Assembly: GCA_021613335.1 (NCBI GenBank)
Contig: JAJTWR010000001.1
Location: 38,501 to 102,500, forward strand
Source of the DNA: Whitmania pigra
Lineage: Eukaryota > Annelida > Clitellata > Hirudinida > Haemopidae
Length of the DNA: 64,000 nt
Direction: 5' to 3'
The position numbers and the translations under genes were made by a program. The notes under the pieces are model-generated. The model did not search any database and was not told where the DNA came from. It worked only from the letters and a program-made list of their open reading frames with translations. Position 1 is the stretch's first letter, and every line of letters begins with the position of its first letter. Of this stretch, positions 1,264 to 30,729 are shown piece by piece.

Positions 1264-1480
1264 GATTGTTGAGAGCTAACACAACCAGAGTCAACAAGAC
1301 CATAGGCGGAAAGAAGGTCGCCACTTCATTGTCTGTTTTGCAACACCCGCCAAAGTTAAGATTGACTATCTTAGATTTAAAGTTCAGGCGTACATACGTG
1401 AGCTGACCCGCTGCTTCAAGTTCAACATAGCCGTTAACTGCCAGCACAAGGTAAAGTGCCCTGAAAGAGTGCCAGACAAA
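1264..1480 (+). mobile_element. LINE gag-like ORF1 fragment (before the zinc knuckles)
   Basis: The short block TRVNKTIGGKKVATS is followed by 'AKVKIGYLSFKVQAFVRE'-like residues in shifted frames. It matches the middle of the better preserved ORF1 copy at 23746-24691. The segment breaks off inside the first zinc knuckle. It is one of at least ten pieces of this ORF1 in the first 25 kb. Confidence 0.6.
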
Positions 1481-1591
1481 GGAGAAGACACTGCACTGGC
1501 TACCCATCCATCTTCGCATCATATACAAAATATCTCTACTCACTTATCGCACATTAACTACATTCAACCCCCCTTATCCCACAAGCTGTTC

Positions 1592-1745
1592 AACATGAAT
1601 AATGCCATAAACATTATTCAATGGAACTGCCAAGGCATCTTTGCCTGATGTTATCTTGCTGCAAGAAACATTTCTGAAAAGCAAGCATTCCTTCAGACTT
1701 AGAGGATATCAAGTGAAGCGGTTCGACCGGCCGGATGAACAAGAA
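1592..1745 (+). mobile_element. LINE ORF2 fragment: start of endonuclease domain
   Basis: The frame opens with MNNAINIIQWNCQGI, a typical start of the apurinic-like endonuclease of LINEs (xxIxxWNxxG). In a shifted frame follow VILLQETFLKSKHSFRLRGY and a 'KRFDRPDE' block, where the Q-E pair corresponds to the catalytic Glu region. A deletion or frameshift between the two blocks (about 1645-1655) disables it. A matching piece with the same RLRGY block lies at 11587-11735. Confidence 0.7.
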
Positions 1746-1825
1746 AGGATCGACAGATGGATAGTTATTCACATTCGATCGTGCTTGAGAATTGATTTCG
1801 TGCGTTGTTGCGTAATTTGAAATTG

Positions 1826-2770
1826 AATGGACAACATGGAGACGATGGACGACGGTTTCCGAACTGTCGAAAATCGGAAGCGCATGAGGATGGAATCCTG
1901 TACCAACTGACATGTCTAGCCACCCTAGGTCAGGACCTCCCCACAGAAGATCTTGAGGAAAATGCATCCCTCATCTCTCAGGCCATTGTCCGAGCGGCGG
2001 AGGCTTGCTCTCCAAAGCCCACAAGCAGCCGCAGAAAACAATCCGTCCCTTACTGGAACGAGGACTGCAGAGCAGCAATCAAAGAAACCAGATGAGAAAC
2101 CGCTTCCTAAAGATGAAGACAGTCGATGCATTCACAGAATACAAGCTGGCGAAAGGGCGAGCTCAATGGGTTGTCAGGAAAGCCAAGAAAGACTGTTGGG
2201 AGAGTTTCTGTGCCAGCTTCAACAGGTCAACAAACCTGGGCACCCTCTGGAGAATCGTCAAGAGCATGAGCGGTCACTCTCAAGGAGCTCGCATCCCCCC
2301 GATCTCCTCTAGTGATGGATCCCCACTGGATAACTTCAGCAAAGCGGAAATCTTTGCAAAAACCTTTGTTTACGCGAGCAGCAATGCAAATCTGTCCCCG
2401 CACTTTGCAAAGATCAAGCAGAATTTCTTTCGATCTCGATCCGCAAGGCTATCCAAACTAGGCATAAAAGGAAGGATGCTTCACTGGATAAACGACTTCT
2501 TACAAGATCGAACCATGTAAGTCAGAATCGGAGCGACTTTCTCCAACCCTCTCACCCTTGACAATGGCACACCCCAAGGCAGTGTCCTTAGCCCGCTACT
2601 GTTCATTGTGATGCTCGACTGTCTGCCCCAACAAGATCAAGGTGTCTATCTACGCCGACGACATAGCCCTCTGGACGACCGGTAGCGATCTTTCCACCAT
2701 GAGGCACAGGATGCAACAGCACCTTAATCAAACAGAGAAGTTTCTTTCCAGCCATGGTTTTAAAATCTGA
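1826..2770 (+). mobile_element. LINE ORF1 start fused to ORF2 linker and reverse transcriptase
   Basis: The piece starts with the N-terminus of the gag-like ORF1 (about 1826-1900) and jumps directly to the ORF2 linker behind the endonuclease (SVPYWNEDCRAAIKETR, about 2040-2094). Then follow AKGRAQWVVRKAKKDCWESF, a 'SMSGHS' block, and after a large deletion (near 2425) the RT motifs GTPQGSVLSPLLF (2567-2605) and IYADDIALW (2650-2676). The YADD box is intact, but the palm upstream is missing and stops interrupt the frame. It is clearly a dead, internally rearranged copy. Confidence 0.8.
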
Positions 2771-2799
2771 AATTTCTAAATCTAACGGTGAGTTGCTCA

Positions 2800-3010
2800 G
2801 TCGGGCATCTCGGCACTACTCGCCAAGTTAATTTTAAAAATTTCAGAGGGCATGAACATGAGGTTCCAAGGAGGAAATCAGGACCAGATGATGGACATCC
2901 TCAACCACGTCCTCCTCCTTGTCTGCATAGGAGGAACCTATCCCTGGTGCTGCCATAGCTGCAGTCAAAAGCTGTATGGTGGCCCAAACAGTTCAACGTG
3001 GATAATGCCA
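2800..3010 (+). mobile_element. LINE gag-like ORF1 C-terminal fragment
   Basis: The text LLAKLILKISEGMNMRFQGG followed by an 'ILNHVLL' block matches the ORF1 C-terminus seen at 4063, 13130, 14160 and 15330. At 2998-3015 it runs into another ORF2 start (a NAINIIQWN block), so the ORF1-ORF2 boundary of the element is visible here. Confidence 0.65.
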
Positions 3011-3056
3011 TAAACATTATCCAATGGAACTGTAGGTAGGCGAGATGTGAAGATCA

Positions 3057-3650
3057 TTGCAAAGACAGTCAGGAAAAGCACTGGATGCGAGAGCGCATCG
3101 AGAGTTTCCAAGAAGGTCGGAGGAAAGAAGGTGGCCACTTCTTAGCTTTAAAGTGCAGGCATTTGTGCGCGAGTCGACTCGCTGCTTCAAGTGCAACGGT
3201 TATGGGCACATAGCCGTTAACTGCCAGCACAAGGCAAAGTGCCCAAAATGCCATGGGGAGCACTCCCTGAAAGAGTGCCAAACAAAGGAATTGACGGAGA
3301 AGCGCTGCGCGACTTGTGACAGTACCAGTCACTTTACTGGTCAGGCTGTCTGTCCGCAGCGCAAGATTGACAATCAGGGCCAATAAGCATATTAGTTATG
3401 CTAAAGCAGTTGAGGCGGCCACTAGCAAGGCCGCAAGAAGGGAGGCAGGGCCAGCACCGGCTCCTTCGGTCTCGGGGGTTACTCCTGTTGACTCTATAGT
3501 CAAACAGGGAAACCCTCAGAAACCAAAAAGCAAAGCGAAGAAGCGCAAAGCCCGCAGCAGTCCTCGCAACCAGCTGCAATTTCATAAGTTAATATTAACG
3601 GTGGGGCGGCCGACTCTCAAAAGGGACTCTCGACAGAACAATTATTGACT
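3057..3650 (+). mobile_element. LINE gag-like ORF1 fragment with three CCHC zinc knuckles
   Basis: The open frame 3057-3386 holds three zinc knuckles: CFKCNGYGHIAVNC, then CPKCHGEHSLKEC, then a CATC..TSHFTGQAVC block. Three CCHC knuckles are usual for nucleic-acid-binding ORF1 proteins of Jockey, I and CR1-like LINEs. After a one-base shift the reading goes on as NKHISYAKAVEAATSKAARR and a basic, Pro/Ala-rich tail up to about 3640. This is the cleanest zinc-knuckle copy in the window. It has no start and ends abruptly at the junction with a different fragment at about 3635. Confidence 0.8.
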
Positions 3651-3916
3651 TGACCTACAACCACCACGTTGTCCTGCTCGAGCCCAGGCATAACAACTCG
3701 TTATGGTCAGCTCTCTTTCGATGTCTCGACACAGCAGTCCGCCCGATCTCGATGATGTTGGCCATCTGCGCCGAGCAGGCCAGATACCATGACATGACAT
3801 GACAGGCATCACGGTCGTCAGGAGGGCTATGCAGTTGGCGCCAGATTTTTGGTGGGATGAGGCAGCCAGAATCGCAGGGGAAAGGCTGCTGCAAACGACT
3901 TTGCTCGAAAGAAGAA
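3635..3916 (+). pseudogene. Nucleoprotein-like fragment (possible endogenous viral element), copy 1
   Basis: A partial frame starts abruptly at an IIDLTY block and continues with a 'RPISM.LAIC.EQARYH' block, then an 'APDFWWDEAARIA' block after a frame break near 3800. A longer copy of the same sequence lies at 14263-14745. The Trp- and Ala-rich helical style, with an 'EQARYHGMT' type block, reminds me of nucleoproteins of negative-strand RNA viruses, which are often endogenised in invertebrates. I cannot confirm this by alignment, and it could instead be an unfamiliar retroelement protein. The copy is broken by frameshifts and ends at an rRNA fragment. Confidence 0.3.
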
Positions 3917-4013
3917 TTGTTACGACTTTTACTTCCTCTAGATGATCAAGTTCGATCGTCTTCTCAAAGAATCGCGGCAAGGCCGTTAAGCCCCGCCGAG
4001 CCTTCGATCCGAT

Positions 4014-4059
<46 letters not shown>
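3917..4059 (-). rRNA. 18S rRNA 3'-end fragment (dispersed, not functional)
   Basis: Read on the - strand, this is the decoding-site end of 18S rRNA: CACACCGCCCGTCGCTACTA, then CCGATTGGATGGTTTAGTGA, a variable helix-44 tip, then GAGGAAGTAAAAGTCGTAAC and AA. The + strand therefore shows the universal reverse-primer site GACGGGCGGTGTGTA at 4045-4059. The order and both flanking universal blocks leave little doubt. Only about 143 bp are present, with no rDNA neighbours. Both sides join LINE or other fragments directly, so it is a captured or transposed piece. Confidence 0.92.
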
Positions 4060-4062
4060 GTT

Positions 4063-4180
4063 AATTTTTAAAATTTCAGCGGGAATGAACAAGAGGTTCC
4101 AAGGAGGAAACTGTCCCAGGTGCAGTCGCTGCTGCAATCAAAAGCTGTCTGGTGACCCAAACATGGAGGAAACAAAGTTA
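4063..4180 (+). mobile_element. LINE gag-like ORF1 C-terminal fragment
   Basis: Directly behind the 18S fragment the sequence resumes with 'LIFKISAGMNKRFQGG' type coding and a following block on the CS..CSQKLSGDPN pattern. This is the same ORF1 tail found at 2800-2960. The junction is at about 4060-4064. Confidence 0.55.
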
Positions 4181-4254
4181 TTAGATGTCCTCACCCGCAT
4201 CTGCATGCTTACTCGTCTTTTTTCGCTCATCTCCTGAATCATGTCGCACTCCTG

Positions 4255-5365
4255 CAACTTCAACGGTGGACAGGTCCCGACCCAAGGACAAGCTCCCTCT
4301 GGTTCCATACTGCAAGGAGGCAGTCAAAGACAGAAATAGAAGAGAGCTGTCTACCAGCAATCAGTGTCGAGTTTTGAGGAATATAAGTGGGCAAGGGGTC
4401 AAGCTCAGTGGACCATCAAGAATGCGAAAAGAGAAAATGCTGGTGGAGTTGTTGTTGCTATCCCTAAAGAGACTCAGAATAAAAAAGAAATGCATAATGA
4501 GATGATAATGAGACACCTAAAACGATGCGTGCCAAGACTAGGAATACGCCCAGAATATTGTATATCACTTTGCATGGAGATCACATACATTACGTATCAG
4601 GTAAAAGGTATTCACCTTCATCTTCATAACGGGACTTTGTGGTCATCCTTGGACCCATGGATACATTCCCAGGATCCCTCAAAGCTGCCACTGCTGCTGG
4701 GCGCATTGTTCCGCCAAGAACGCCCACATTGTGCATGGATGAATGAAACAATCCACAAAAGGTGGCAACAGAGAAAACCACACAAGAAGGTGGACTGCCC
4801 TCATTTAGGTCTATAAAATTCTTACATTAAATACTGATTGTCTAAACGTTCTCAAGGTCACAATTTAATACTCACCAACCTCTTTAACAGAGGCGGAGAC
4901 CTCAGCAGTAGCTCAGAGTCTTGGAATAAATCCTACAAAAATGGATATGGTGTCCCATTGCTCATCCACGTGGTTCCTGCATAATGTAATAATTGCCATT
5001 TGACCATTGACAATTCAGCTAAATTTCATTCCTAATAATGAAATAAGCAATAAGTAAACAACAAGTAAAATCCTTAGCATGTTTAAGACCTCACATTCCG
5101 AGCTTCCCTACCGAACGAGCCATTGTTTTCTAAAGAACTCATTATCATAATTCCGCCGCGAAGAGAGTTCGATTCAGTATAATTTTGTAAAAGAGAATTA
5201 TAAACAATTTTTTTTAATTTTAAAGTTTCTATTTAAATATTTATTAAAAATTAATTTCACGTAACTACGTTTGGCTCTTTGTTGTATTAAAAACGGAAAT
5301 TATATTCAACGCGATTATATGGATATTTATTAATTTTCTTAAAAAACAAACGAGATATTTTCAAG
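4255..5365 (+). repeat. Chimeric dispersed repeat, copy A
   Basis: The copy begins with LINE ORF2 linker coding (EEYKWARGQAQWTIKNAKRE, about 4367-4430) and passes into a long AT-rich stretch of unknown origin. This includes a recurring 'HPRERPHCAWM' type frame near 4700-4800. It ends in a shared 3' block (about 5225-5365) containing TTTATTAAAAATTAATTTCA and an AACGCGATTATATGGATATT motif. The same composite occurs at 16674-17990 (+) and 20640-21845 (-). This copy has internal deletions relative to copy B. Because three copies share the same chimeric joint, the joint was made once and then multiplied. Confidence 0.65.
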
Positions 5366-5639: not shown

Positions 5640-7275
5640 GTCAATATAAAAATCAACCTCAGTGGTACTTCAGATCAGTAAAATTAACGCCTCTCACTCC
5701 AAAATAACTTCTAACTCCTACCTTGTTTGATTCTCTTCTAGCTGATCCCTTCTCATGCCATTTTGCTTTGGCCTCATTATTATAATGACGCAACAGGGTA
5801 AAGAGAGAATGTTCAACGTCTCTAATTGAGATGCTTCTTTAAAAGTTACACCCAGATATCTTTTTAATACATCGTCACTTAGTTTTCTTGGTTTGAATTT
5901 ATCCGTGACTAGACCTGGGAGGTATTAGTCCATTATCCACTTAGTTTTAAGTCCGTAATTTGGAGCAGACCGTTAACTGTCTGACTATTGATTCCTTTCG
6001 TCTGTACTGTTGATATTTAATCTCTCATCAGTACCGTATTTCTTTTTATATTAATTATGTCACTTCTTTTTTCTGCCGATGTTTTTGGCTGTTTTCAAGA
6101 AATGTTTTCTGAAAAGTTTTCAGGATCATCACCGTTCCATACTATGAAATTATCATCGAGATATCGAAAGAAAATTTTGGGATTATAACTGTAGATGAAA
6201 TCATCGATTTCTTTCATATAAAGGTTTGCTAGACCGGGTGAGTATTTTTTACCCATTGCGCATCCGCGGGGGTTTGCAGGAAAAAGTTACCTTCGAATTC
6301 GACGTCATTGTTCCTAAGAGTGAAATTAAGTAGGTTGAGGATTAAGAGGTCTGGTCTACCTATTTCTGGATTATTTTGAAAAAGATCTATGATGATTTTC
6401 ATAATTCGATCAAATTTCATGTTTGTGTATAGAGCCGTGACATCACCAGTTATTAGTGTATCATGCTGTGTTGTGTTATGTTTGTATCCTTGATTTTTTC
6501 AACGAAATCGAAAACATTCTCGCAAAAAAGATCTTAGATTCTTACTATGTCTGTTAACATAGAAGTCCATGAAGCTTGCTACTCGGTATGATTCGGTGTT
6601 CACGTCTGAAACTATTGGTCTACCTGGGGGTTGTAAAGGATTCAGCCATTTTTCTATTGGTTTATGTATTTTAGGAAGGATGTAAAATTTTCTGGTGTAA
6701 TAGTCTCCAGTAGTTTTTAAGTAGTCAGCAGTTTTTCTGTCTATTGAATTTGTTTGTAGGCCTTTATCGATGAAATCATTGATGATATTTTTGTTTTGAG
6801 GGTGTTTAGGTTCTGTAAGAGGTTCATAAAACCTTTTGTCCTCAAGCTGTTGTGTTACTTCTATTGTATATGCCGTTTTGGATAGGATGGGAAAGGTACT
6901 ACCCTTGTCCGCTTTTCTGAATAGGTATGTTTCCTATCCAGCAGTAATTTCTTTTATGGGGGATAATGAACCTATTGCTTGTTTCATCATAGAAACGTTT
7001 AAGTTTATAGATTAACTGTCGTGTCTCAGGAGATAACCCTAACCCTTCAGGAGATATTTCGATTCTGGAAGGTTCCCAATTACTTTTTTTACTGAAAGGA
7101 AGAAAGTTATTACTGATGGTACGTCCCATGAAATAATCTTTAAGTTTTATGGTCATAGTTAACCTATTAAAGAGGAGGTTAAGGTTATTTTTGTGGATTG
7201 TCGATTCTGCTGGGACAAATTTTATTCCCAAGTTCAGAATATTAACCTTTTCTGTTGTCAATTCTAGGTGTGAGA
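5640..7275 (-). mobile_element. Penelope-like element reverse transcriptase (broken)
   Basis: On the - strand the pieces appear in the order expected for a Penelope-like RT. First comes an N-terminal NILNLGIKFVPAEST block (about 7250-7200), then RKADKGST (about 6920-6895), then FYILPKIHKP (about 6700-6665), GRPIVSD (about 6625-6605), an ITGDVTALYTNM block (about 6455-6420), and the catalytic box YLDDNFIVWNGDD (about 6160-6120). The ILPKIHKP motif and the KADKG motif are characteristic of Penelope-like elements. Frame changes near 6900, 6480 and 6230 disable it. I see no GIY-YIG endonuclease downstream, so the 3' part is lost or unrecognisable; 5370-5640 shows no further motif. Confidence 0.8.
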
Positions 7276-9150
7276 GATTTAATGTTGGCCCTTGCGGGAT
7301 GCCATTGCTAAAAAATGTGGGGGCGATAGTGTGAGACCTTCAATGTTCACCAGCGGCTCCAATCTTCTAATTAGTTCAATGGGTTTTCTGTTGTTTGGTA
7401 AAATTTCTTCTTTCGCTCTCATAGTCGTTGTCTACCCTTCTCTTATGTGCACTTCTTCCCAACGATTCATCTTTCGAAACATGTGCTGAATGCATGCGTT
7501 CCACATGTTTCTTCAAGTTTGACGATGAACCTTCGAATGCTGAACACAATTTCTTTTTAGCACAGTTGCAAACTGATTCGATTTTGCTTCCTTTGATTCA
7601 AATCAGAATCTATTGCATGTTTCATCATAGAAACGTTTAAGTTTATAGATTAACTGTCATGTCTCAGGAGATATTTCGAGTATTCCTGTATTTCTGGCCA
7701 TTGATACTGTTGTAACGTCTAGTTGTCTGTGGATCAAAGTTATAATCTGATTGCATCGTATAAAGCAAACGTTATAGTTAAAATTGAATGGTACTAGGCT
7801 ACTTAGGGTTAGTAGGAAAAATCGCCTTATCCGATTATTTCCCCAGTTGTATTTGTGTTCATTGATTCTGATCAAATTGAAGTAGGTCTTTGTAACATTC
7901 CTTATTGTGGATTCTGCTGGGACAAATTTTATTTCCAAGTTCAGAATATTAACCGTTTCTGTTGTCAATTCAGGGTGTGAGAGATTTAATGTTGGCCCTT
8001 GGATCGGGCCGCCATTGCTAAAAAATGTGGGGTCGCTAGTGTTAGACCTTCAATGTTCACCAACGGCTCCAATCTTCTAATTAGTTCAATGGGTTTTCTG
8101 TTGTTTGGTAAAATTTCTTCTTTCGCTCTCATAGTTGTTGTCTACCTTTCTCTTATGTGCACTTCTTTCCAACGATTCATCTTTCGAAACATGTGCTGGA
8201 TGCATACGTTTCTTTAAGTTTGACGATGAACCTTCGAATGCTGAACACAATTTCTTTTTAGCACAGTTGCAAACTGATTCGATTTTGCTTCCTTTGATTC
8301 AAATCGGAATCTATTGCATGTTTCATCATAGAAACGTTTAAGTTTATAGATTAACTGTCATGTCTCAGGAGATATTTCGAGTATTCCTGTATTTCTGGCA
8401 ATTGATACTGTTGTAACGTCTAGCTGTTTGTGGATCAAAGTTATAATCTGATTGCATCGTATAAAGCAAACGTTATAGTTAAAATTGAATGGTACTAGGC
8501 TACTTAGGGTTAGTAGGAAAAAACGCCTTATCCGCTGTTCAATCGTATGCTAAACGTGCGAATAAACTTTATTTCTTCAGTTGTTTTGTTTTAAGATAAA
8601 GATCCTAATAAAAAGACTGGATGTAAGTTTTTTGCTTTTGTATTGTAGATTATTTCTCCAGTTGTATTTGTGTTCATTGATTCATCTTTCGAAACATGCG
8701 TTCCATATGTTTCTTCAAGTTTGGCCGTGAACCTTCGAATGCTGAATTTTTTTTGCACAGTTATATGATTTTGCTTCCTTTGATTCAAATCGGAATCATT
8801 GTGTTTAAATATGGCCACGTGTGCACTTCAATGTTGTTCCCCTTATCAGCGCTAGCTATGTTCAAATACTCGTGTATCGACGTCTATCGGACGTCCGACG
8901 GGTCGTGTAAATATAAATAACAACAAGCACCATCACACACAAGCTCTCAGTTATGAAACGGACTACAATCAAATAAATAAATAAATAAATCACACACAAG
9001 CTCCAGGCGTGTAAGACTAGGAGTAGAGTACAGACATTTAACTTCACCCCACAACTTCTCCAGGCTACAAGCGTGCAGGACAGCGACAATGTTTATTCCC
9101 AAGTTCAGAATATTAACCTCTTCTGTTGTCAATTCTAGGTGTGAGAAATA
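7222..9150 (-). repeat. Tandem 5' array of the Penelope-like element (pLTR-like)
   Basis: The 5' end of the Penelope-like element is repeated head to tail. Marker AAGTTCAGAATATTAACC occurs at about 7230, 7936 and 9099 on the + strand. The first two units are about 706 bp apart and nearly identical over most of their length; the third interval is about 1163 bp and diverged. Each unit restarts the same protein N-terminus on the - strand. Partial tandem copies with LTR-like repeats are a known habit of Penelope-like elements. Short open frames inside (for example 7428-7640 and 8135-8341) are by-products of the duplication. Confidence 0.75.
8932..9003 (+). mobile_element. 5'-truncated SINE insertion with target-site duplication
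   Basis: A 42-bp insert (8947-8988) with a tail of AAAT repeats is flanked by a perfect 15-bp direct repeat, ATCACACACAAGCTC, at 8932-8946 and 8989-9003. The insert body (ATGAAACGGACTACAATCAA) resembles tails seen at 18850-18898 and 37150-37190. Direct repeat plus short-repeat tail is the mark of target-primed reverse transcription. Confidence 0.8.
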
Positions 9151-11849: not shown

Positions 11850-12115
11850 GGCTAATCAGAGGTTCTGTATCATCAGCATCCCCAAAAACGTCAATGATGG
11901 AACAGTCAGTGAATGCACTGGATGCAAGAGCGCATCCAGGGTTATTAAGAATGTTGCAGGGAAGAAGGTGGCCATGTTTGTTTTTTTTAGGGTTAGTGTT
12001 AGGTTAAGAGACGTCTCGTCCCTTACTGGAACAACGACTGCAAGGGGGCAGTCAAAAACCGAAAGAGAGCTGTCCACCGGTAATTTCGATCGGAGTTGAG
12101 TTTTGAAGAATACAA
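11850..12115 (+). mobile_element. LINE ORF1 piece joined to ORF2 linker piece
   Basis: An ORF1 block (FCIISIPKNVNDGTV followed by ECTGCKSASRV) joins at about 11990 to a linker block (SLTGTTTARGQSK in the wrong frame for 'PYWNNDCKGAVK'). This is the same style of mosaic as the neighbours. No complete domain remains. Confidence 0.55.
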
Positions 12116-12379
12116 GAAACGAATGTCTTCATCAGGATGGAGACAAAAAATCTGAACCCAGTCCGGGTTTTTTGTATTTTTTGTACAAATTTATTTTCCT
12201 AAAAATCAGTTTTAAAATATGTTCACAGTTTTTTTTGTTTACAGCCAGATCTAGAAGAATATTTCTGAAGAGATGGACCTCAAAGAAAATTCATGGACTT
12301 AACCTTGTTAAATAAAAACTTGGTCAAGTGACCAAGGAATGATAAATGGTCTTGTATTCATTGGGTGATTGAAAACATG
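12116..12379. other. Short spacer, no gene
   Basis: This is an AT-rich stretch between ORF1 pieces. A 'RMETKNLNPVRV' reading of ORF1 appears at its start (about 12138-12170) and resumes at about 12390, as if about 220 bp had been inserted into ORF1. I see no terminal repeats that would identify the insert. Confidence 0.4.
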
Positions 12380-13300
12380 GTTTTCCAGTCCGGGTTCAGA
12401 AACAGGTTAGTGCAGCGTTTGGCAGGAACGATGATAAGATCCTTGCAAGCAATATTCTTGCCAACGAGGCTGAGTTAGCCAAGCTATCTCAGATAAAGGA
12501 ACAGGACGGAGTCTCGGCCAATGTCGGTCAAGCCGAAACTGCGTAGGCGTCCCCGCCAGCACCGACGATGAGACAATACTTGAGAGTACTGGTTGTGTTA
12601 GCGCAACCAGAGTCCGCAAGACCGTAGGCGGTAAGAAGGTGGCCACTCCGGTGGTCATCGTAAATTTTGCGGGTGCAACTCCCGCGAAAGTTAAGATTGG
12701 GTATCTTAGTTTTAAAATGCACGCAAGTGCAACGGTTATGGCCACATAGCCGTAAACTGCCAGCACAAGGCAAAGTGCCCAAAATGCCACGGGGAGCACT
12801 CCCTGAAAGAGTGCCAAACAAAGGAGTTGACAGAGTAGCGCTGCGCGACTGTTGGCAGTACCAGTCACTTTACTGGTCAGGCTGTCTGTCCGCAGCGCAA
12901 ATAGAGAAGGAGGCCTTGACAATCAGGGCCAATAAGCATATTAGTTATGCTAAAGCAGTTGAGGCGGCCACGAGCTAGTTCGCAAGAAGTGAGGCAGCAC
13001 CGGCACCTTCGGTCTCGGGGGATACTCCTGTTGACTCTATAGTCAAACAGGGAAACCCTCAGAAACCAAAAAGCAAAGCAAAGAAGCGCAAAGCTAAGAA
13101 AGTTGCGGCGGGGCCGCAGACTCTCAGCATTAGTCGCCAAGTTAATTTTGAAAATTTCAGAAGGAATGAACAAGAGGTTCCAAGGAGGAAACCAGGACCT
13201 CCGAGAGTACCTGGGACCAGCGAGAATAAACATGAGGACACTCAACTGGAACATCTTCCAGTCCAAGTGCTCCTCCCTCATCCTCTACGAACAACCTGGA
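12380..13300 (+). mobile_element. LINE gag-like ORF1 copy, nearly full length but broken
   Basis: Blocks appear in order: ORF1 middle (LSQIKEQDGVSANVG, about 12485-12530), TRVRKTVGGKKVATPVVIV (about 12608-12664), zinc knuckles from about 12725 to 12895 with the first knuckle damaged, NKHISYAKAVEAAT (about 12930-12971), the basic tail (KPKSKAKKRKAKKVAAG, about 13065-13115) and the C-terminal LKISEGMNKRFQGG block (about 13147-13190). Several stops and shifts interrupt it. A closely similar copy lies at 14740-15480, so this may be a segmental duplication. Confidence 0.75.
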
Positions 13301-13487
13301 GGATAACACGAAGTTCATCACCGACTCCATCACCAGTGCAGCCACAGAGAGCTCCTCGATCTACAAAGGGCAGAGCAAGAGGCCTCTCGTCCCTTTCGGT
13401 TAACATTAACGGTGGGGCCGCAGACTCTTAGCAGGGAGTCCCGGCATTACTCGCCATGTTAATTTTAAAAATTTCAGAGACATAAGA
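13301..13487 (+). mobile_element. LINE mosaic piece (linker plus ORF1 tail)
   Basis: Contains a 'SSIYKGQSKRPLVPF' linker reading (about 13355-13398), then returns to the ORF1 tail NINGGAADS and LLAMLILKISE (about 13402-13480). It matches the start of the block at 15530. Confidence 0.5.
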
Positions 13488-13911
13488 GATGAAGTGCCAC
13501 CTCTGTTGACCGCATGCTGTCGGACATTGCAAAATTTTGTATGGTCGGCGCAGAGAGTGACATAGTTAATGACTACATTATTTCCTCACAGGAGAAGAGA
13601 GTAAAACAGGGAGCAGCCTCTGCCCACGGACAGAGTTCGAACCACTCGACGATTCCCTAGGACCATTGGCCGAGAACCCATACTCGGATTCCAACGAGTC
13701 GGTAAGTGCATCATTTAATGCTATTGAAGCACTCGTAAATAACGCAAATTACAAATTACCGGAATAGACAAGGCTCATCCGTTTATTTTGTGACTTTGAT
13801 TTAGGAGCCGGCAACACTACGCCCCCATATCAGATGTCGGACCTCATTGGAGGGCTGCTGACGTGTGATGTCATCCCCTCCAAACTCTCAGGGGAAGACT
13901 TGGGCCTTTCT
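13488..13911 (+). pseudogene. Nucleoprotein-like fragment (possible endogenous viral element), N-terminal part
   Basis: Open stretches in shifting frames include DRMLSDIAKFCMVGAESDIV (about 13500-13560), a region near 13690-13760 with an in-frame stop at about 13767, and a 'DFDLGAGNTTPPYQMSDLIG' block (about 13790-13850). None of this belongs to the LINE proteins identified elsewhere. It lies upstream of, and in the same orientation as, the fragment at 14263-14745. A LINE ORF1 tail (13912-14262) separates the two. A viral nucleoprotein origin is a guess based on overall style, not an alignment. Confidence 0.28.
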
Positions 13912-14262
13912 CAGGGCCAATAAGCATATTAGTTATGCAAAGGCAGTTGAGGCGGCCACTAGCAAGGTCGCAAGAAGTGAGGCAGCGCCAGCACCGGCAC
14001 CTTCGGGGGAGACTCCCGTTGACTCATTAGTCAAAAAGGGCAATCCTCAGAAGCCAAAACGCAAAGCGAGGAAGCGCAGCGCCAAGAAATCGGCGGCAGG
14101 CTCGCAACCCGCTGCAAATTCACCCAATAATATTAACGGTGGGGCCGCAGACTCTCAGCAGGGAGTCCCGGCATTACTCGCCAAGTTAATTTTGAAAATT
14201 TCAGAAGGAATGAACAAGAGGTTCCAAGAGGAAACCAGGACCAGATGGACCATTTTAAACCA
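13912..14262 (+). mobile_element. LINE gag-like ORF1 C-terminal half
   Basis: One continuous frame reads RANKHISYAKAVEAATSKVA, an Ala/Pro-rich stretch, a Lys/Arg-rich stretch, INGGAADSQQGVPALLAKLI and ISEGMNKRFQEET. It is the best preserved ORF1 C-terminus in the window and has no stop. It sits between the two parts of the nucleoprotein-like sequence. Confidence 0.75.
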
Positions 14263-14745
14263 CGTCCTCCTCCAAATCGGGGTTGAGGTGGACCTCGACA
14301 GGACGATCATCGACCTTACCTACTGCCACCATGTCGTTCTTATCAGCCAAAAAAACAACAATTCGACGGGATGGTCGTCGCTCTTCAAGTGCCTGGACTC
14401 CGCTGTTCGGCCGATCTCGATGAGGCTCGCTATCTGCACAGAGCAAGCCTGATACCATGGAATGACCGGCATTACAGTCGTCAGGAGGGCCATGCACCTC
14501 GCCCCCGACTTTTGGTGGGACGAGGCCGCCCGAATCGCTGGCGAAGGAGCAGCTGTCACAGCAGCCAACGAGTTTGCAAGGAACTACCCATACCATACCT
14601 ACACCGGCCAAATGGGTGAGGCCCCAGTCAAACAGGCCCTGTACCCAAACATCTTCTACGCAGTGAAACGGATACTGGTTGATGTCATTGGAGAAACCAG
14701 CATGGCCACATATGGAGGGCTGGATAGGGGCCGCAAGACCTAGGC
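14263..14745 (+). pseudogene. Nucleoprotein-like fragment (possible endogenous viral element), C-terminal part
   Basis: The frame continues from the ORF1 tail without a stop into an 'IGVEVDLDRTIIDLTY' block and ends at TGA-type breaks near 14450. A second frame (14462-14743) carries the blocks APDFWWDEAARIAGEG, NEFARNYPYHTYTGQMGEAP and a 'YPNIFYAVKRIL' block. A shorter copy lies at 3635-3916. The 3' joint to LINE ORF1 is at about 14730. If viral, it is a dead endogenous copy split by a frameshift near 14455. Confidence 0.3.
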
Positions 14746-15480
14746 GGTAAGAAGGTGGCCACTCCGGTGGTCATCGTAAGTTTTGCAGGTGCAACTCCCG
14801 CGAAAGTTAAGATTGGGTATCTTAGCTTTAAAATGCACGCAAGTGCAACGGTTATGGGCACATAGCCGTAAACTGCCAGCACAAGGCAAAGTGCCCAAAA
14901 TGCCACGGAGAGCACTCCCTGAAAGAGTGCCAAACAAAGGAGTTGACAGAGAAGCGCTGCGCGACTGTTGACAGAACCAGTCACTTTACTGGTCAGGCTG
15001 TCTGTCCGCAGTGCAAGATAGTTAAGGAGGCCTTGACAATCAGGGCCAATAAGCATATTAGTTATTCTAAAGCAGTTGAGGCGGCCACGAGCTAGGTCGC
15101 AAGAAGTGAGGCAGCACCGGCACCTTCGGTCTCGGGGGTTACTCCTGTTGACTCTATAGTCAAACAGGGAAACCCTCAGAAACCAAAAAGCAAAGCGAAG
15201 AAGCGCAAAGCTAAGAAAGCTAAGAAAGTTGCGGCAAGCACGCAGCAGTCTTCGCAACCAGCTGCAATTTCTTCAGTTAATATTAACGGTGGGGCCGCAG
15301 ACTCTCAGCAGGGAGTCCCAGCATTAGTCGCCAAGTTAATTTTGAAAATTTCAGAAGGAATGAACAAGAGGTTCCAAGGAGGAAACCAGGACCTCCGAGA
15401 GTACCTGGGACCAGCGAGAATAAACATGAGGACACTCAACTGGAACATCTCCCAACTCCCTCATCCTCCAGGAGCTACCC
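14746..15480 (+). mobile_element. LINE gag-like ORF1 copy, second half of a duplicated pair
   Basis: It has the same order as 12620-13300: TVGGKKVATPVVIV-like start, damaged first knuckle (about 14840-14880), CPKCHGEHSLKEC (about 14897-14935), NKHISYSKAVEAAT (about 15049-15090), basic tail with a tandem 'AKKAKKV' (about 15205-15235), and the C-terminal EGMNKRFQGGNQDLREYLGP block (about 15357-15416). The phrase LREYLGPARINMRTLNWNI is shared only with 13200-13260. It marks these two copies as products of one duplication or one sub-family. Confidence 0.75.
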
Positions 15481-28888: not shown

Positions 28889-30729
28889 CTCAGACTTTTT
28901 GTCAAGTTTGAAGTCAGCAGAAGTTTTGGAATCGCAAAAACACTTTTATTTCAACGATTTGTAATTGTGCGACTTTTCCGATATGTTTGAATCGTGAATT
29001 ATTTTATTGCACGTGCGATAAAAGATTCTGAATATAATAGATCCGCAAATTAATTTTTTAATTAATTTCACTAACAATGTGCCAAAAATAAAACAAACTA
29101 TTAACAAATAAATGTAAATAAATAAATAATAAAGATTTTATTTATGTAATTAACTTTATTTAATTGGAATTTGTTATCCACAAAAATTATATAAAACGTT
29201 GTCTGTTATCAGAATTAAATCATTATAATGCTTGTGTGACTAATAATTATTTTTATACAAATTTTATAACTTTAGATACCTATTTAATAATTAATGTGTA
29301 TTAAATATGCCCAAACATGTGGCGTAAAAGATTGAAATAGGATATAATGGAAGGAAAAAGGAAATTTTCTCAATATAATTTCCAATTGCGGCGACAACTA
29401 TCGACGATTATTTCTGAGTTTATCGAATGATGCCATGTTATTGTAATCATTTTGCAAAATCATTTCACCGTTAATAAACTGCATTAAATAATGATTTTGA
29501 ATCTGGAAATTATTATTTTTTGTTTATGCACAAACACCACAGCCGATGAATTATTTCACGATGATATATTTATCGATACCGGGTAACACAGTCACAAAAC
29601 TGATGTTGTTTTTGGCGCCTGTTGAGGGGCGGATTTTGAAGCGAATTGTTCGTGCGGATGATTTCAGATTTTTGATTTTTTTAAATTAGTTCTTAAAATT
29701 GAAATCATAATTTATTTTTTTTTCTTTATAAAGGTTATTGATGCGTTTTAATTTGTTTAATAAAATATATTTTTCTGTTTCTGAAAGTACTCGTGAGATG
29801 TCTCTCTTGATCTAATTGTGTTTAATATATCGATGCATCTTTAAATTAACTAATTAAATAAAGTTATACGTTACCATTTATAATTTTATGTTCAACGCTA
29901 GTAACTTTATAATTCATGTTACACGTTCGTTTCTTTACTCATTTAGTCTAAATAATTTTAGTTGAGCAAAGGACTTTGTTTGTATAAAATTATCAATAAT
30001 CGCATATTATCAGATCAGCTAGATCAAAACATTGTGACAAACAGTCATTTGACGAGGCTTTCCAAGACTTGAAACTAGATTTAAAATGTAAACACATTTC
30101 ATAGGCAAGACAAAATTATCAATAATCGCATATTATCAGATCAGCTAGATCAAAACATTGTGACAAACAGTCATTTGACGAGGCTTTCCAAGACTTGAAA
30201 CTAGATTTAAAATGTAAACACATTTCATAGGCAAGACATTAATAAAATTTCCTCATTTTGATAATATTAGAAGCAATGTTCTATGCATGCCGTCTATTAA
30301 TACTATTACAGCCCTGGTGACAAAACATTAATTAGTTTGTGCAATTAAGTTTACATTTATTGCTGATCCACGACTGGATTGCCTTTTTTTTCGGGATATA
30401 CCGAGAAGCACATGAATGATGTATTTTATTTGGTTATTTTAAAGACTAGTTATTAGTTCAAGTGTGAGTTTAGTTATTATCTTCCAAGTAATGCCAAAAA
30501 TATTCGATACAATGTGTAATTAAGAACATAAAACCAATATGTTGTTTACGAAAGTTTTGTATTTTAGATTTGTACAACTAAATCGTTCGTTATCTCTATT
30601 GACATTTTAATGAAAGTGATTACCTTTTCCTTTATTTTTATTATCACTTTTAACAATAACAATCTGACAGTCAATCATGGTAATGATCATAACATCTAAT
30701 TGAACGGACGCGTCGATTTCACAGGAAAA
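28889..30729. other. Divergent intergenic region between the GANP-like gene and ARFRP1
   Basis: About 1.8 kb, AT-rich, holding the 5' flanks of both genes. No SAC3-like coding or other exon was found on the - strand. The only clear structure is the exact tandem duplication at 29986-30237. Confidence 0.55.
29986..30237. repeat. Perfect 126-bp tandem duplication
   Basis: Two adjoining copies, 29986-30111 and 30112-30237, agree at every base that I compared. The unit begins AAAATTATCAATAATCGCAT and ends CATAGGCAAGAC. Perfect identity implies a recent event or an assembly artefact. Confidence 0.95.

Follow-up and report, generated by a model that had tools for sequence, protein, structure and literature searches.

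Same-ended fragments of 18S rRNA and 5'ETS in an animal genome, one of them within a LINE ORF1-like copy

Tailless retropseudogenes are retrocopies of structural RNAs that have no A tail, carry target-site duplications and show preferred truncation in single-stranded regions (PMC5322556, Genome Biol Evol 2015). As presented in the available part of that paper, they derive from tRNA, spliceosomal, 5S, 7SK and other RNAs of therian mammals; the human cases include two from 18S and ten from 28S, and internal priming is the favoured explanation. In chimeric LINE-1 insertions, fragments of 28S, 5S, tRNA and U3 are recurrently joined to LINE sequence, for which the authors suggest processed RNA fragments together with RNA ligation or template switching (PMC13174262, Cell Genomics 2026); the main text of that paper, as available, has no occurrence of '18S'. 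The bipartite and tripartite chimeric retroelements of Magnaporthe arise by template jumps, double jumps included, which fuse copies of different RNAs in one insertion, and they are flanked by repeats of 10-20 bp (14 bp for the tripartite form), with no occurrence of rRNA in the available text (PMC2104539).

Here we describe a piece of 18S rRNA found in a 64-kb stretch of DNA (the window, meaning the whole stretch analysed), together with rRNA fragments elsewhere in the 178-Mb genome. Like the tailless retropseudogenes, as far as PMC5322556 presents them, the helix-44 copies have no A tail, and their shared ends are unpaired in the predicted fold of one copy (L002). Repeats resembling target-site duplications are present at L002 (74 bp) and L078 (24 bp, 11 bases off on one side), whereas at the window and at L003 target bases are missing instead. 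The recurrent sources are also different from those in the available part of PMC5322556, being an 18S helix-44 unit and a 5'ETS unit in what is apparently another organism. In contrast to the mammalian L1 chimeras, as given in PMC13174262, the LINE at the window is the target and the partner of the 18S piece is a nucleoprotein-like piece; compared with the Magnaporthe chimeras described in PMC2104539, the window insert shows a target deletion, not flanking repeats. Against the texts available, the genome-wide pattern points to the known tailless or chimeric kind of retropseudogene, with nucleolar source units as its unusual part.

The 18S piece and the LINE copy that holds it

The features concerned, in window coordinates, are the following.

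3051 to 3637, forward strand: left part of a degenerate copy resembling LINE ORF1, with the zinc-knuckle region and the basic tail, from zf-CCHC and alignment to 17 other LINE copies.
About 3630 to 3914, forward strand: nucleoprotein-like piece (label of the sequence-only reading) with a broken reading frame, abutting the 18S piece; 74% nucleotide identity to 14290-14555.
3917 to 4059, reverse strand: helix-44 region of 18S rRNA, antisense to the LINE; RF01960, 92.9 bits; 3' boundary common to eight more loci.
4060 to 4163, forward strand: right part of the LINE ORF1-like copy, which takes up again with 11-20 bases missing, from repeat matches and LINE alignment.
14290 to 14740, forward strand: related, longer nucleoprotein-like piece inside another LINE ORF1-like copy, from nucleotide and protein similarity.

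The sequence-only reading had described a 143-bp antisense piece of the 18S 3' end at 3917..4059 with no further rDNA near it, and both statements hold. A cmscan search at gathering thresholds matched 3917-4052 of the reverse strand to RF01960, eukaryotic 18S rRNA (92.9 bits, E 1.4e-23), as the sole RNA family match across the window, and the 18S letters, followed by eye in the sequence, extend beyond the cmscan end at 4052 to 4059. A complete or collapsed rDNA unit in the window was rejected, as cmscan gave one 18S piece only. The piece has its 3' end, ...GUAACAA, at 3917 and its 5' end, UACACACC, at 4059, and its helix-44 region spans UACACACCGCCC to ...AAGUCGUAACAA; by the usual naming of 18S helices, the two ends presumably fall in a strand of helix 28 and in the helix 44/45 linker. 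Since the 18S goes on after AACAA as GGTTTCC at L089, and different copies go on past the other end as CAAAGGGCAG, the 18S sequence stops at once at both joints of the window. The fold predicted for the helix-44 unit, using the L002 copy, is a single long hairpin with unpaired ends (z -2.99).

The right joint, which had been put at about 4060, lies at 4059/4060. Many LINE copies contain the 52 bases that start at 4060, and at the 13 compared loci the sequence in front of them is LINE, ending GCCAA, and not 18S; the stretch 4060-4360 has 51 genome matches in all. An alignment of 17 LINE copies was assembled from these 13 loci and four other copies in the window, cut out by a word spanning the junction, and the LINE runs uninterrupted across the insertion site in the copies elsewhere. 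According to this alignment, the window copy tracks the LINE until the similarity fades at 3627-3637 and does so again from 4060, with 11-20 LINE bases absent; the zf-CCHC match in the left part scores 19.1 bits, slightly below the cut-off of 20.8. Because LINE copies elsewhere cross the site uninterrupted, the target is the LINE, interrupted here by roughly 430 bp of inserted sequence (about 3630-4059), namely the nucleoprotein-like piece and then the antisense 18S. No flanking repeat longer than 6 bases was found at this insert. The proposal that 18S had been spliced into LINE sequence thus stands for the position within the LINE and for the right joint, but not for a simple 18S-LINE fusion, with the LINE serving as target and the insert made of two parts.

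The nucleoprotein-like piece makes up the left two thirds of the insert and, by eye, ends at about 3914, where it meets the 18S piece directly. That such a neighbour exists and is repeated was borne out: a protein search with the longer copy at 14290..14740 gave 6 genome matches, counting the query and the piece at about 3630-3914. The label itself gained no support, as no family or viral protein match was found in PDB, Pfam, the protein database or viral contigs, and the predicted fold of one such piece was poor (mean pLDDT 45.8). Two nucleoprotein-like copies on one contig (L066 and L067; G000:C5:1071-1307 and 29823-30059) have equal scores and one stop each, and are probably a segmental duplication.

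Elsewhere in the window, nested or tandem LINE ORF1-like fragments occupy 1282-4163 and 11902-15400, some with a spacing of about 1.1 kb and with nucleoprotein-like pieces among them; as a guess, these nests could be a small-RNA-producing cluster. A tract of about 1.3 kb at 7197-8502 consists of direct repeats with a period of 701-710 bp.

Ends and flanks of rRNA fragments across the genome

With the window 18S piece as query, 15 places were found in the genome, the window included. Further queries gave 30 matches for other stretches of 18S, one of them a bacterial 16S, 19 for ETS plus 18S and 14 for 28S, with overlaps between the searches. For the analysis of ends, 41 loci were mapped onto two references, an 18S-3' frame and a 5'ETS frame. 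Duplicate names of places (e.g., L033, L035-L037, L040, L043-L049, L051-L054, L056, L061, L062, L070, L075, L082 and L086), the bacterial 16S locus (L060) and the 28S matches were left out of the mapping, and the pairs L013/L014 and L042/L043 were each entered once.

The search for further copies with the same joints, which the sequence-only reading had proposed as a check, found an 18S piece with the same 3' boundary at eight more loci. Nine of the 25 18S-3' fragments (L001-L009, where L001 is the window), on nine contigs, have 3' ends at 802-808, i.e., within 7 nt, with AACAA ending at 804; the shared end is ...GUAACAA, directly before helix 45. Five of the 25, all among these nine, also share a 5' end at 650-653. 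A second unit corresponds to the last ~90 nt of the 5'ETS: 6 of the 16 5'ETS fragments end at 379-383, and mature 18S begins at 384. In yeast, a pre-rRNA processing site lies ~90 nt upstream of the 18S start. When ends were simulated as uniform and independent, with window sizes set post hoc, 0 of 20000 trials placed nine 3' ends within 7 nt, 2 of 20000 placed five 5' ends within 4 nt, and 0 of 20000 matched the clustering of 5'ETS ends. The weak piece at L071 (73%) was left out of the 18S-3' simulation and L063, the reference itself, out of the 5'ETS simulation, while L073 and L074, which have the same ends, were both counted in the 16. A later insertion interrupts L012 at 785, and this position was taken as its end; for L006 and L008, the ends were followed beyond an insertion of this sort.

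Scars of insertion are present at several loci. At L002, the helix-44 piece stands alone between 74-bp direct repeats that are 98.6% identical. Two-part fusions within one insertion occur at L081, where an ETS piece, a SINE-like head and a short A-rich tail come one after another, the whole lying between exact 14-bp repeats, and at L080, where an ETS piece is followed by the retroposon-like tail GTCTAAATCATCTCAGTTATGCAAAGGACTATAATCAAATAAATAAATAA between 14-bp repeats (13/14); by 'SINE-like' we mean tRNA-like heads recurring at other loci, a reading of our own. The ETS piece of L078 is enclosed by 24-bp repeats (23/24), with the left repeat 11 bases off. At L083, the tail seen at L080 directly follows the ETS end, and at L077 and L084 (ETS) and L079 (18S) a SINE-like head begins 0-10 bases downstream of the rRNA piece; none of these four loci showed a repeat.

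Among the other helix-44 copies, L003 lies within a reverse transcriptase gene (RVT_1, E 0.0038, a match below its cut-off). When the flanks of L003 were joined, 35 of 41 matches crossed the joint, and because 13 of the 35 are exactly 17 bases longer, the sequence comparison suggests that the insertion lost about 17 target bases. No repeats could be placed at the insert ends of L003, L004, L005, L006, L008 and L009, and the only flanking repeat at L007 is 15 bp long and AT-rich. Directly beside the helix-44 piece, L001-L009 have neither an A tail nor a retroposon tail; at L009 there is only a partial tail about 350 bp away. The copies at L006, L007 and L008 are interrupted by what look like later insertions. 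In L007 (1645-1856), an element of about 200 bp with inverted-repeat ends sits in the 18S copy at TACA, the place where the window 18S piece ends, which is probably a coincidence.

Three further loci deserve separate mention. At L076 (1501-1634), an 18S fragment lies inside a (GATT)n microsatellite. L063 (1495-2530) comprises about 380 nt of 5'ETS and the first 600 nt of 18S, antisense, beside a retroposon-like tail (GGACTCTAATCAAATAAATAA). L060 (609-2155; G000:C360 near 2095340) holds a complete bacterial 16S rRNA (1574 bits), two tRNAs and the start of a 23S; this contig is bacterial, from a symbiont or a contaminant in the assembly.

Candidate origins of the copies

Because the shared ends, the flanking repeats and the retroposon parts point that way, our data suggest that definite, discrete rRNA fragments were repeatedly reverse transcribed in this animal. 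At the window, a LINE-type reverse transcriptase likely made a retrocopy of one such discrete piece of 18S rRNA, the helix-44 hairpin and the short single-stranded arms beside it, either along with a nucleoprotein-like sequence or immediately next to one, and the product entered a LINE ORF1 copy that lost 11-20 target bases. By this route, the fragment would have existed as an RNA with its 3' end at GUAACAA, and the reverse transcriptase would enter at this true 3' end; the fragment could be copied alone, giving tailless copies such as L002, or after a jump from another template, as at L080 and L081. At the window, the nucleoprotein-like template would have been copied first, followed by a jump to the 3' end of the helix-44 RNA, and the product would then have entered a pre-existing LINE ORF1 copy with loss of target bases. 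Such a jump fits because the 18S 3' end faces the nucleoprotein-like piece. The single-hairpin fold of the helix-44 unit and the largely private changes of the 18S copies speak for the retrocopy reading as well. Against it we count the want of flanking repeats at the window and at L003, L004, L005, L006, L008 and L009, the want of a retroposon tail joined to any helix-44 copy, and the five changes that some 18S copies have in common. The earlier suggestion of template switching during LINE reverse transcription agrees with the RNA-like uniform ends, flanking repeats and retroposon junctions found genome-wide, but not in the form of a plain 18S-LINE chimera, the LINE being the target.

An alternative at the level of DNA, in which the repair of double-strand breaks used broken rDNA as filler and so scattered pieces over many places, is unlikely, although it has several observations on its side. 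The genome contains 18S, ETS and 28S pieces of many kinds at scattered places, and end joining would suit the window and L003, where small target deletions are found but no repeats. L089 runs through the GUAACAA point to the 18S 3' end and beyond, and it and the ETS-bearing L063 are longer rDNA pieces that the DNA route would fit equally; we count both against the retrocopy reading. It is not apparent, however, why DNA fragments should stop at the mature 18S start or just before helix 45, and end clustering of the kind seen occurred in 0 of 20000 simulations (with uniform ends and post hoc windows). The SINE-like fusions and the flanking repeats of 14-74 bp also point to target-primed reverse transcription.

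It is very unlikely that the helix-44 piece is a mobile SINE-like family spreading from master copies. Five loci with the same two ends would suit such a family, as would five changes common to two to four 18S copies in a comparison of the 14 other 18S loci with the window copy. In that comparison, 54 changes are private. The shared changes link L003 with L010; L008 with L009, L013 and L041; L009 with L013; L007 with L015; and L008 with L009. The five two-ended copies, however, have none of these changes in common, and no common sequence stands beside the helix-44 piece; the master family was rejected for this and for want of a common 3' part. L009 is the most diverged 18S copy. The sequence-only reading had expected divergence to date or source the window piece, and a foreign source is not indicated: taking the majority of copies as a stand-in for the functional 18S gene, the window copy looks native and fairly recent on sequence grounds, since at no column does it differ from the majority of the compared copies.

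An assembly error, with rDNA reads misjoined into a repeat-rich contig, is highly improbable. The region is a nest of LINE repeats, and the rDNA array was not found in the assembly and seems to be missing from it (one match each to the 18S 530-loop and to the 18S 3'-end pattern, with at most 3 mismatches). Against this, the boundary is common to nine loci on nine contigs, one of which (L002) has its 74-bp repeats, and three (L006, L007 and L008) bear apparent later insertions. Finally, an 18S rDNA-specific LINE that moved flanking rDNA to new places, also raised in the sequence-only reading, is scarcely credible: the window 18S piece does adjoin LINE sequence, but the shared 3' boundary faces a different sequence at each of the nine loci, with no common neighbour and no single LINE end at a fixed rDNA site as in R elements, and the LINE at the window and at L003 is a target that is uninterrupted in other copies.

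Source RNAs and significance

Reverse transcription of discrete rRNA fragments, the reading preferred here, leads to a wider interpretation, which we put forward as possible and no more than tentative. The insertions would be a fossil record of specific rRNA cleavage products, namely a stable helix-44 fragment, cleaved close to the 3' strand of helix 28 and in the linker between helices 44 and 45, and the final ~90 nt of the 5'ETS, both of which would be discrete germ-line RNAs serving repeatedly, via their true 3' ends, as templates for the resident LINE reverse transcriptase. The window insert would then be helix-44 RNA joined to a possibly viral RNA in a single double-template event. Because the 5'ETS unit ends at a real RNA-processing end, a truncated source RNA is favoured here over the internal priming preferred in the available part of PMC5322556.

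A known cleavage of helix 44 was considered as the source of the 18S end and set aside, as the cleavage described in the available part of PMC7707567 is in 26S helix 69, with no evident internal ends in 18S, and does not explain it. Among the matches listed in a literature search of partial coverage, no recurrent 18S helix-44 or 5'ETS retrocopies were recognised by title or start of abstract.

Should the helix-44 and 5'ETS units prove real, they would be relevant to a question posed in the available text of PMC5322556, namely whether truncated retropseudogenes stem from broken RNA or from internal priming, and nucleolar products would join the RNAs mobilised by LINEs. Retrocopies of conserved 18S primer regions could mislead rRNA surveys. 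Same-ended genomic insertions of this kind may show which fragments of rRNA were accessible to reverse transcriptase in germ cells.
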